Shown piece by piece: positions 8,262 to 39,945 of a stretch of DNA of 64,000 bases. Within the stretch, counting starts at the first letter, position 1. Each line of letters opens with the position of its first letter. The notes beneath the pieces were generated by a model. The model searched no databases and was not told the DNA's origin. It saw only the letters and a list, made by a program, of their open reading frames with translations. The stretch comes from Dehalococcoidia bacterium (GTDB lineage Bacteria > Chloroflexota > Dehalococcoidia > Lucifugimonadales > UBA3495): contig JAJDTP010000016.1 in the NCBI GenBank assembly GCA_022827095.1, positions 1 through 64,000 of the forward strand, in the 5' to 3' direction. The position numbers and the translations under genes were made by a program.

Positions 8262-8360
8262 TTTTGTCATCGCGAGGAGCGCAGCGACGTGGCGATCTCG
8301 TTCCCGCAGCGGCGTCCGTTTCCCTGACGAGATTGCCGCGCTGCGCTCGCAATGACAAAA
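8262..8360. repeat. Family A inverted-repeat element, copy 1 (short form)
   Basis: Imperfect inverted repeat with ends TTTTGTCATCGCGAG and CTCGCAATGACAAAA enclosing about 70 bp. It shares the CATTGCGAG and CAATCTCGT/ACGAGATTGCC core with copies at 8783, 18775, 34534 and 39867. It has no coding capacity and looks like a MITE-like or palindromic intergenic element. It ends 38 bp upstream of the first small-protein promoter. Confidence 0.8.
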
Positions 8361-8398
8361 GCCACTATGAAAGGTACTGAGACTTTATCCTTTGAGGG

Positions 8399-8431
8399 TT
8401 GACAGCGGCGTTATCGCTGATTATGATAACG
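8399..8431 (+). promoter_or_regulatory. Sigma-70-type promoter with dyad, for small protein 1
   Basis: TTGACA at 8399-8404 is separated by exactly 17 bp from TATGAT at 8422-8427, a near-consensus promoter. The inverted repeat CGTTATC (8409-8415) and GATAACG (8425-8431) with a 9-bp gap overlaps the -10 box and is a possible repressor operator. The start codon of the small-protein gene is at 8484. Confidence 0.8.
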
Positions 8432-8483
8432 AAAATTCCAGTTTGCAATGTGGAAGCGACACCGATACAGGAGGCTAGGAGCG

Positions 8484-8705
8484 ATGGTTACCCTCAACGA
8501 ACGTCTAGTCACCGTGGATCAAGAGAAAGTCACCGGGTTGTTGACCGAGCAAGTGGAACGGGATCTGGCTGAAGCATTGACCGAGTTTGGGGCCCACAAG
8601 GAAGAAATCGCGCCGGAGCGCGCCTGCCGCATCTCCCCGCCGACCCTGGTGTACGGCGTGCCTATGGCCGGAGTGCGGTACTACAGCTTCGCGCCGGAGA
8701 CGTGA
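8484..8705 (+). CDS. Small paralogous protein 1 with conserved YGVPMAGVRYYSF end
   Basis: A 73-residue protein of unrecognised family. The start is the ATG at 8484 with AGGAGG nine bases upstream. The N-terminal two thirds are acidic and helical (GLLTEQVERDLAEALTEFG), and the C terminus is YGVPMAGVRYYSFAPET. It aligns with the gene at 9035: both share an NE(R/K)L start region, VERD(L/M)A in the middle and YG(V/I)PMAGVRYYSF near the end, the last being the best conserved. This leader-plus-conserved-tail layout recalls RiPP precursor peptides, but no modifying enzyme is adjacent. Alternatives are a small ribosome-, polymerase- or enzyme-binding protein. It has its own promoter and terminator. 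Confidence 0.85.
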   Translation: MVTLNERLVTVDQEKVTGLLTEQVERDLAEALTEFGAHKEEIAPERACRISPPTLVYGVPMAGVRYYSFAPET

Positions 8706-8738
8706 AGCGGCAGGGCGAGAAAGCGCGGTGATGCGCTC

Positions 8739-8760
8739 GGGGCGGCCAACCGGTCGCCCC
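8739..8760 (+). terminator. Hairpin terminator of small protein 1
   Basis: GGGGCGGCC, loop AACC, GGTCGCCCC: a nine-pair stem with one G-T pair, followed by TCGACTTTTA. The hairpin after the second small-protein gene uses nearly the same sequence, which suggests the two complete transcription units are duplicates. Confidence 0.75.
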
Positions 8761-8782
8761 TCGACTTTTAACCCTCATCGCA

Positions 8783-8938
8783 GTGAGTGTTCATAATCCA
8801 GGAGGTTGTCATTGCGAGGCGCCTGCGCCGCGGCAATCTCGACACCGTAGCGGCAATGCCTGCCCCAAAGGAATCCCCTACGCCAACGAGATTGCCGCGC
8901 TTCGCTCGCAATGCCACCCTCAAGTCTGAACAGTTACG
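8783..8938. repeat. Family A inverted-repeat element, copy 2 (long form)
   Basis: About 155 bp with outer ends AGTGTTCA and TGAACAGTTACG and inner ends TTGTCATTGCGAGG and GCTCGCAATGCCAC. It fills most of the gap between the two small-protein genes and ends 14 bp before the -35 box of the second promoter. Like the other copies it has no open frame of its own. Confidence 0.8.
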
Positions 8939-8952
8939 CATCGCAATATCAT

Positions 8953-8994
8953 TTGACAATCTCCGATTAATCATATATGATACGTCTCGTATCA
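8953..8994 (+). promoter_or_regulatory. Sigma-70-type promoter with dyad, for small protein 2
   Basis: TTGACA at 8953-8958, 17-bp spacer, TATGAT at 8976-8981: the same two hexamers and spacing as the promoter at 8399. A dyad TGATACG-TCT-CGTATCA at 8978-8994 overlaps the -10 box and the expected start point, and could be an operator. The intervening bases are different from those of the first promoter, so the matching hexamers are not just recent duplication. Confidence 0.8.
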
Positions 8995-9034
8995 AGTGAT
9001 GTGCAGATAGCATGAACCAAGGAGGTACGCAACG

Positions 9035-9250
9035 ATGGTTGTCACCAACGAAAAGCTCCTCACCAACGACGAAACCCAGGCTCAGACTGGGTTGCTGGTG
9101 GACCGGGTGGAACGGGACATGGCCGACGTGCTGAATGAGCACGGATCCACCAGGTCGGAGGACAAGCGAGAGGCCCGGGTCTTCAGCTTCGGCTACGGTA
9201 TCCCGATGGCCGGCGTTCGCTACTACTCCTTCACGGAGGAGCAGCGGTAA
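9035..9250 (+). CDS. Small paralogous protein 2 with conserved YGIPMAGVRYYSF end
   Basis: A 71-residue paralogue of the protein at 8484, start ATG with AAGGAGG nine bases upstream. It reads TGLLVDRVERDMADVLNEHG in the middle and FGYGIPMAGVRYYSFTEEQR at the end. The middle segment between the helix and the tail is variable in length and sequence, whereas the tail is nearly invariant. No signal peptide, membrane helix or cysteine is present (the paralogue has one Cys). The gene has its own near-consensus promoter and a ten-pair terminator, suggesting abundant, independently controlled expression. Function unknown; RiPP precursor-like or small regulatory protein. Confidence 0.85.
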   Translation: MVVTNEKLLTNDETQAQTGLLVDRVERDMADVLNEHGSTRSEDKREARVFSFGYGIPMAGVRYYSFTEEQR

Positions 9251-9282
9251 AGCGCGGGGCTAACTCCCCAAAGCCAAACACC

Positions 9283-9304
9283 GGGGCGACCGAACGGTCG
9301 CCCC
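9283..9304 (+). terminator. Hairpin terminator of small protein 2
   Basis: GGGGCGACCG and CGGTCGCCCC form a perfect inverted repeat around AA, followed by TCGTCGTTTCATCTTT. It nearly matches the terminator at 8739-8760. Confidence 0.8.
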
Positions 9305-9347: not shown

Positions 9348-10574
9348 TCAGTTGTCTCCCCTGTACCCGCGGTTGCGGATCTCCTCTTCCATGTGGGCCC
9401 GGATGCCGATCAGGGCGGCCGCCCCTTCTCCCACCGCAGCGGCAACCTGCTTGGTGCTGCCGGCCCGGGCGTCGCCCGCGGCAAAAACCCCGTGACGACT
9501 GGTCTCCATGCCCGTATCCGTCACAATGAACCCCCGCTGGTCCAGTTCTACGGTGTCCGACAGGAAACCCGTGTTGGGATCGAGCCCGATAAAGACGAAC
9601 ACGCCGGCCGGATGCAGCTCCTCCTGCTGACCGGTGGTCAGGTCTTCAACCAGCACTGAGGCAAGCTTGCCATTTCCCCGAAACTCCCGGACCGCAGTGT
9701 TCAGACGGATATCCATCTGCGGGTGGGCCGCTGCCTTGTCCTGCAGGATCTGGCTGGCCCGCAGCCGCTCGCCCCTTTCCAGAACGGTAACGTGGGAGGC
9801 GAACCGGGTGAGGAACAGGCCCTCCTCGACGCCGCTGTTGCCACCGCCTACCACCAGCGTTTCCATGTCGCGGTAGAACGGCCCGTCGCAGGTCGCGCAG
9901 AAGTGGACGCCGGCCCCGATGAAGTCCTCCTCGCCCGGCACGCTCAGCCGGCGATACCGGGTTCCCGGGGTAAGCAGCAGAGCCGATGCGCGGTACTCCT
10001 GGCCGGAGTCGGTGGTGACGGTGCGCACTCCACCATCTTCGGCGTCGGAATCCACCGACGCCACGGTTTGGGCGACCAGGATTTCCACGCCGAAACGCTC
10101 GGCCTGCCCGCGCATGCGGTCGGCTAGCTCAGCGCCCGTAATCCCCTCAGCGAACCCAGGATAGTTGTCGATACGCTCCGTCGAACCGGCCTGGCCGCCG
10201 ACTCCGCCACGCTCGATGATCAGGGTATCCATGCCCTCACGGGCCGCGTAGATGGCGGCGGTCAGACCGGCCGGGCCGCCACCGACGATGATCAGGTCGT
10301 AGTAGGAGCGGCTGGCCTGCGGGTTGATGCCAAGACGCGCCGCCAGCTCGGCGTTGGACGGCTCGACCAGGATCGGCCCGCCGTCATCGAAAACGATGGT
10401 GGGAATGATCTGACGGCCATCGTTCAGCTGGCGAACGGTTTCCTGGGCTTCAGGCTCATGCTCGATGTCCACCCAGCGATAGGGTATGCGGTGCTCCGCA
10501 AGGAACTGCTTGGAGCGACGGCAGTCGGGGCACCACAGGGCGCCGTACACGGTCATGCCGGGGGATTGCGTCAT
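9348..10574 (-). CDS. Glutaredoxin-thioredoxin reductase fusion
   Basis: Flavoprotein disulfide reductase of about 408 aa. Residues 7-82 form a glutaredoxin-like domain with the CPDC active site (Cys15, Cys18). Residues 92-400 form a thioredoxin reductase: FAD motif VGGGPAG (97-103), redox centre CATC (Cys226, Cys229), NADPH motif GGGNSG (243-248) and the C-terminal FAD segment GDARAGSTKQ. The enzyme should pass electrons from NADPH to its own glutaredoxin domain and on to cellular disulfides or peroxidases. The start could also be the ATG six codons in. It is convergent with the twin small-protein genes. Confidence 0.94.
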   Translation of the reverse strand: MTQSPGMTVYGALWCPDCRRSKQFLAEHRIPYRWVDIEHEPEAQETVRQLNDGRQIIPTIVFDDGGPILVEPSNAELAARLGINPQASRSYYDLIIVGGGPAGLTAAIYAAREGMDTLIIERGGVGGQAGSTERIDNYPGFAEGITGAELADRMRGQAERFGVEILVAQTVASVDSDAEDGGVRTVTTDSGQEYRASALLLTPGTRYRRLSVPGEEDFIGAGVHFCATCDGPFYRDMETLVVGGGNSGVEEGLFLTRFASHVTVLERGERLRASQILQDKAAAHPQMDIRLNTAVREFRGNGKLASVLVEDLTTGQQEELHPAGVFVFIGLDPNTGFLSDTVELDQRGFIVTDTGMETSRHGVFAAGDARAGSTKQVAAAVGEGAAALIGIRAHMEEEIRNRGYRGDN

Positions 10575-18774: not shown

Positions 18775-18929
18775 AACTGTTCAAAGTTGGAGAAGTGTCA
18801 TTGCGAGCGCAGCGCGGCAATCTCGTTGGCGCAGGAGAGACCTTCAGTGCAGGCGTTGCTGCTACAGCGACGAGATTGCCACGGCGCAAGCGCCTCGCAA
18901 TGACAACCCCGGGGTGCTGAACACTTACG
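18775..18929. repeat. Family A inverted-repeat element, copy 3
   Basis: Outer ends AACTGTTCA and TGAACACTTACG, inner ends GTGTCATTGCGAGCG and CGCTCGCAATGACAA-like arms. The left arm runs CATTGCGAGCGCAGCGCGG and the right arm reads GCGCAAGCGCCTCGCAATG. The right end overlaps the 5' flank of the HAD gene. Confidence 0.8.
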
Positions 18930-34533: not shown

Positions 34534-34692
34534 TAACTGTTCCGACTTGCGGGAAAAGTGTCATTGCGAGCCCAGCGCGGCAATCTCGTCAGCGTAGGGA
34601 GGCCTTTGGCGCAGACGTTGTTGCTACGGCGTCGAGATTGCCACGGCGCAAGCGCCTCGCAATCACAACCTCCCGAGTTCTGAACAGTTACG
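34534..34692. repeat. Family A inverted-repeat element, copy 4
   Basis: About 159 bp with outer ends TAACTGTTC and GAACAGTTACG and inner ends GTGTCATTGCGAGC and GCGCCTCGCAATCACA. The best-preserved long form. It lies 5' of the S49 peptidase gene; the remaining bases between it and the start show TAGGATAT at 34731-34738 as a possible -10 box. Confidence 0.8.
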
Positions 34693-39866: not shown

Positions 39867-39945
39867 GTGTCATTGCGAGCGGAGCGCGGCAATCTCGTCC
39901 GGTCGGCCTTGTGTCTTTGCGAGCGCAGCGTGGCAATCTCGTCGG
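39867..39945. repeat. Two direct half copies of family A element
   Basis: Two left arms in direct orientation: GTCATTGCGAGCGGAGCGCG at 39869 and a matching CTTTGCGAGCGCAGCG at 39911, each followed by GCAATCTCGTC. No right arm is present, so the copy is truncated or tandemly duplicated. Confidence 0.7.

Follow-up and report, generated by a model that had tools for sequence, protein, structure and literature searches.

Small GVRYY-Tail Proteins of SAR202-Type Chloroflexota Appear to Be Stress Proteins and Not Precursors of Peptide Antibiotics

A gene pair in a 3.79-Mb SAR202-type Chloroflexota genome encodes two small proteins with a common GVRYY tail. They appear to be stress proteins and not precursors of peptide antibiotics, because many members of their family, among them the second of the pair, share the DNA switch of the heat-shock chaperone operon. 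The reading that we favor with moderate confidence, from sequence comparisons, is that they are HspR-controlled small cytoplasmic stress proteins, which would probably serve chaperone or protease systems via the tail acting as a docking motif. The family, made of undescribed proteins of 60–80 residues, has so far been found in one SAR202-type order only. This stress context consists of a putative HspR-type operator at the promoter of gene 2 and of chaperone genes beside its relatives. It was missed by the original prediction, which saw in the two proteins the shape of precursors of ribosomally synthesized, modified peptides (RiPPs) and held a regulatory or carrier protein to be equally possible; the latter alternative may still hold. 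The whole 64,000-nucleotide stretch analyzed here, termed the window, belongs to contig C26 of the source genome.

The Gene Pair and Its Control Elements

The two proteins, of 73 and 71 aa, are paralogs that share the tail YG[VI]PMAGVRYYSF and show 51% identity over the alignment returned by the search. Genes 1 and 2 write this tail in different codons, and its identity is thus not due to recent copying. The features of the pair are as follows.

8399..8427, + strand: gene 1 promoter, sigma-70-type TTGACA-N17-TATGAT; TTGACa...TTAtgATAA is kept in 14 gene-1 upstream regions
8409..8431, strand not applicable: dyad CGTTATC-N9-GATAACG over the gene 1 −10 box, imperfectly conserved, not an HspR box
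8470..8474, + strand: gene 1 Shine–Dalgarno sequence
8484..8702, + strand: gene 1, 73-aa GVRYY-tail protein; stop codon 8703–8705
8652..8690, + strand: gene 1 conserved tail, YGVPMAGVRYYSF
8739..8760, + strand: hairpin 3' of gene 1, probable terminator with a weak T-tract
8953..8981, + strand: gene 2 promoter, sigma-70-type TTGACA-N17-TATGAT
8977..8995, strand not applicable: putative HspR-type operator ATGATACGTCTCGTATCAA of HAIR geometry (dyad ATGATAC-N5-GTATCAA), overlapping the gene 2 −10 box; matrix score 19.1
9020..9025, + strand: gene 2 Shine–Dalgarno sequence
9035..9247, + strand: gene 2, 71-aa GVRYY-tail protein; stop codon 9248–9250
9194..9232, + strand: gene 2 conserved tail, YGIPMAGVRYYSF
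9283..9304, + strand: hairpin 3' of gene 2, probable terminator with a weak T-tract
9348..10574, − strand: glutaredoxin–thioredoxin reductase fusion, convergent with the pair; kept in nine genus loci including the window

Both open reading frames with their shared tail, both promoters and both Shine–Dalgarno sequences are present as first described, and promoter-like sites numbered 5, against 0.5 expected in shuffles. Two other elements were described only partly correctly. The near-identical hairpin terminators do correspond to two hairpins, 84% identical across 32 nt, but their T-tracts are weak and a terminator scan flagged neither of them; likewise, a dyad covers each −10 box, but the two dyads are not one element, that of gene 2 being the HspR-type box. 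As for the repeat ("family A") thought to open a fixed repeat–promoter–gene–terminator unit, it is incidental to the pair: GAGATTGCCGCGCTNCGCTCGCAATG is a dispersed repeat with six copies in the window (8329–8354, 8888–8913, 18799–18824, 34562–34587, 39871–39896, and 39915–39940). No Rfam match to a structured RNA was obtained.

Distribution and Conservation of the Family

The original prediction had made its case depend on conservation of the tail outside the source genome. The tail is indeed kept well beyond it: we found relatives in all 14 genus genomes, in 37 of the 50 family genomes (E ≤ 0.1) and in 51 of the 250 order genomes (E ≤ 0.05), the weakest of these matches being borderline. A search of 393 class genomes returned strong matches only from three genomes of the same order, the remainder being noise (E ≥ 0.004). 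The statement that the proteins belong to no recognized family agrees with our searches, in which no Pfam, NCBIfam or PADLOC profile matched; among 40 members, no Pfam domain, including the alpha-crystallin domain PF00011, exceeded its cut-off. Comparison with known structures was equally negative, as a PDB profile search gave nothing meaningful and Foldseek matched no known fold (best E 4.5). AlphaFold predicted a helix in both runs, with a pTM near 0.3, and folded the tail into a beta-hairpin at high confidence only when the window protein was placed first; this hairpin did not recur when a distant member took the first position, and we therefore make no claim about the fold. In our literature search, GVRYY turned up in unrelated papers only. 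A phage or mobile origin was considered and dropped, as the tail pattern has no match in 2.9 million viral contigs. In many metagenome-assembled genomes, the family genes lie within ~2 kb of contig ends (G004:C6, G005:C464, G006:C4, G009:C36, G013:C103, and G022:C7), an indication of repeats or strain variation there.

Beyond the genus, conservation is restricted to a short helix region and to the tail, Px[AP]GVRYYx[FY], located at or near the C terminus, in which G, V, and the second Y are invariant in our alignments; the linker joining the helix to the tail is variable, and some members run 5–25 residues past the motif. For gene 1 of one clade, pairwise comparisons, whose counts are not independent events, gave 122 synonymous versus 0 nonsynonymous differences in the tail codons and 345 versus 325 in the rest of the gene; in the close clade, the corresponding figures were 18 versus 6 and 93 versus 90. 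These codon patterns indicate that the tail is under strong purifying selection as protein.

Such a tail might mainly be a degradation signal, in which case the family would consist of unstable stress proteins or sacrificial substrates, with an aromatic C terminus recognized by Lon, Clp or a related protease. All members have an aromatic motif C-terminally or close to the C-terminal end, which would suit this role, as would the scarcity of other conserved positions and the stress-linked control described below. However, conservation extends to the helix as well, the motif is followed by further residues in several members, and known aromatic degrons usually need less strict conservation than that of GVRYY with its invariant G, V, and Y. 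We therefore regard a degradation signal as improbable.

An HspR-Type Operator Upstream of Gene 2 and of Other Family Members

The dnaK operon is under repression by HspR, for which DnaK serves as corepressor, and heat shock lifts this repression (PMC10415612, PMC2687793); the HAIR operator of HspR reads CTTGAGT-N7-ACTCAAG (PMC7464140). The inverted repeat TTGACA-N7-TATCAA was initially seen upstream of several family genes and was then checked with an independent set, the hspR genes taken from 49 family genomes. In 29 of 30 loci, the region upstream of hspR contains TTGA-N11-TCAA, with TTGAYAC-N5-GTRTCAA as consensus. The hspR box of this lineage has the geometry of HAIR with altered arms. 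Known HspR regulons and the system described here are thus alike in the TTGA-N11-TCAA geometry and in the position of the box at the core promoter, as well as in the hspR–grpE–dnaK operon of the source genome and in the presence of hsp20 and clpB near relatives of the pair, whereas the arms differ (TTGAYAC/GTRTCAA instead of CTTGAGT/ACTCAAG). We found no paper combining HspR, HAIR, and Chloroflexi, and the HspR targets named in PMC2687793 are chaperone and protease genes plus a few others, none of them coding for a GVRYY-tail protein.

We trained an operator matrix on 28 of the hspR sites and used it to scan 723 kb, comprising the window and the loci L062–L101. At a score of at least 16, it detected 16 sites, each upstream of a family gene (all within ~330 bp); the scanned loci had been picked around family genes, these upstream stretches amount to ~2% of the sequence, and column-permuted matrices yielded a mean of 0.15 such sites with a maximum of 2. 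The distance from site to start codon is 57–105 bp in 14 of the 16 cases and ~320 bp in L062 and L066, and hspR is not adjacent in 12 of these high-scoring loci. Within the window, the box at 8977–8995, which covers the core promoter of gene 2, ranks first with 19.1, the runner-up reaching 6.4.

Genome-wide occurrences point in the same direction. The source genome (3.8 Mb) contains the pattern WTGAYAYNNNNNRTRTCAW in two places, the hspR–grpE–dnaK promoter (box TTGATAC-N5-GTGTCAA) and the promoter of gene 2. Across the 14 genus genomes, the exact pattern occurs one to three times per genome, 14 times at hspR, 8 times at gene 2 and 8 times at other places, the hspR of G013 being counted by inference from its box and neighboring sequence. 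The putative repressor in the source genome is a MerR-type HspR homolog encoded upstream of grpE and dnaK (G000:C20); its best NCBIfam matches are HspR models, at 94 bits, just below the curated cut-off of 105, and a second HspR, located in an hsp20–dnaJ–clpB cluster, exceeds the NCBIfam cut-off. A small zinc-ribbon protein (CPKCxGDL...CLQCG; L123:5626–5832) is encoded divergently from hspR under an HspR box in the source genome, and the same protein adjoins family genes in L070, L077, and L079.

Box-bearing family genes span three taxonomic families, and the boxes of the distant members L075 and L099 fully match the hspR consensus. The box is absent from about half of the members beyond the genus and from gene 1. 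Taken together, the operator sequences lend good support to the prediction that gene 2 and part of the family are under HspR-type control.

Control of gene 1 by HspR was rejected: no HAIR-type inverted repeat covers its core promoter, where the best site scores −7.0, and the other gene-1 copies score −9 to 7. Its promoter carries another conserved stretch, around TTAtgATAA-N2-AaaAT. The intergenic operator between hsp20 and dnaJ was also tried as the gene-1 element and rejected, the sequences being different.

Gene Neighborhoods and Alternative Readings

No single neighbor is conserved beside the family genes, although outside the genus the neighbors are of one kind, namely stress genes. An hspR homolog lies divergently, 82–160 bp upstream, in L065, L076, L080, and L097; it is a third HspR paralog, present in some genomes and apparently dedicated to the family gene. 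In six loci, the adjoining same-strand gene is hsp20; it precedes the family gene in L064, L074, L077, and L101, where dnaJ, the second hspR and clpB follow divergently, and comes after it in L076 and L080. These two opposite gene orders represent independent cases. Other loci have a universal stress protein (usp) gene upstream (L072, L079, L092, and L098) or the copper ATPase CopA directly downstream (L062 and L066), and Ni-SOD is found at L076 and L080. Members without an obvious stress neighbor include, for example, L069, L073, L078, L081, L093, and L094. As common descent accounts for the arrangement shared among several loci of one genus, independent cases are fewer than these counts. The two copper ATPase loci also contain a His-rich 63-aa open reading frame (MHIH...; L062:9401 on the minus strand and L066:8909), which separates the family gene from its HspR box.

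The box of gene 2 could be read by another regulator, for instance one that responds to nitrogen-oxide, redox or metal stress; in that case, the family would be a general redox or metal stress protein outside the heat-shock regulon. The genus gene-2 boxes have TATCAA arms, whereas the genus hspR boxes mostly have TGTCAA arms, and an HspR-like box, TTGATAY-N5-RTATCAA, also lies just upstream of a multicopper oxidase in four genus genomes (L205, 2715; L206, 2614; L207, 2103; L209, 2128), an enzyme which we take, by eye from its sequence, to be NirK-like. It is because of these arms and oxidase boxes that a different reader is conceivable, and the thioredoxin reductase of the genus, CopA and Ni-SOD would fit it. 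On the other hand, the hspR boxes of other genera of the taxonomic family also hold one TATCAA arm and that of the source genome is TTGATAC-N5-GTGTCAA, the L075 and L099 boxes agree with hspR throughout, and hsp20, clpB, and hspR recur as neighbors. Another regulator appears rather unlikely.

The precursor reading of the original prediction fares worse. It would make the helix a leader and the GVRYY tail a core, which enzymes encoded elsewhere in the genome would modify and release, perhaps yielding an invariable cofactor-like product similar to PQQ or mycofactocin. The proteins are short, are conserved in a C-terminal block whose aromatic and Arg residues are invariant, and occur as dispersed copies; PqqA and MftA, precursors with fixed C-terminal cores, are also short and likewise have a conserved block, rich in Tyr and Gly, at the C terminus. 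Unlike these, the GVRYY-tail family has no maturation enzyme of the YcaO, RRE or SPASM classes that adjoins it or co-occurs with it in the genus, and its operator is of a stress type. No enzyme neighbor is conserved, and against a small gene present in 14 of 14 genus genomes, YcaO was detected in 0, RRE/PqqD in 1 (a weak match of 25 bits) and SPASM in 5, not including the source genome; the maturase search covered these three classes. G011, a 99%-complete genome in one contig, lacks YcaO, RRE and SPASM altogether. The MFS exporter gene upstream of the pair, which had been cited as context, is common only to the closest species and is an incidental neighbor. As the HspR operator and the chaperone neighbors also fit poorly with RiPP precursors, we consider this reading very improbable.

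A Possible Role in Protein Quality Control

Given the published HspR/DnaK circuit and the position of the box, which covers the −10 element, we infer that gene 2 should switch on with dnaK. HspR, together with DnaK as in Streptomyces and mycobacteria, would repress gene 2 until unfolded proteins titrate DnaK away, and the gene 2 protein would then be made together with DnaK–GrpE and, in some relatives, with Hsp20. Gene 1, its paralog, would be under a different control. With less certainty, the tail may be a motif by which the protein docks to a chaperone or protease, in which case it would assist protein quality control as an accessory factor or adaptor. Since the tail is the sole part common to all members, and since these reside in different stress operons, the simplest explanation is a docking motif that they share for a common partner.

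Hsp20 comes first among the candidate partners because its gene is adjacent in both gene orders. It is HspR-controlled in Deinococcus too (PMC2687793). The GVRYY-tail proteins are nevertheless distinct from Hsp20/alpha-crystallin proteins (PF00011), having no alpha-crystallin domain and half the length. A functional parallel may be drawn with the C-terminal tail of mycobacterial HspR, which contacts DnaK and is involved in protease threading (PMC10415612): both are hydrophobic conserved tails in an HspR/DnaK circuit, but no sequence relation was seen, and HspR has a DNA-binding domain that the GVRYY-tail family lacks. More tentatively, and as a possibility only, the family could represent a new tail-bearing accessory of the chaperone network, in which lineage-specific paralogs placed under different stress regulons (HspR, the hsp20 operon, Usp, and copper) would link the respective stress to Hsp20, DnaK or a protease by way of one GVRYY docking motif.

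A family devoid of annotation thereby gains a regulatory context in SAR202-type Chloroflexota, an abundant uncultured group, and the HspR operator of this lineage is defined. These proteins also provide a short motif with a possible docking function toward the chaperone machinery, and the motif, the operator, and the link to hsp20 are each directly testable.
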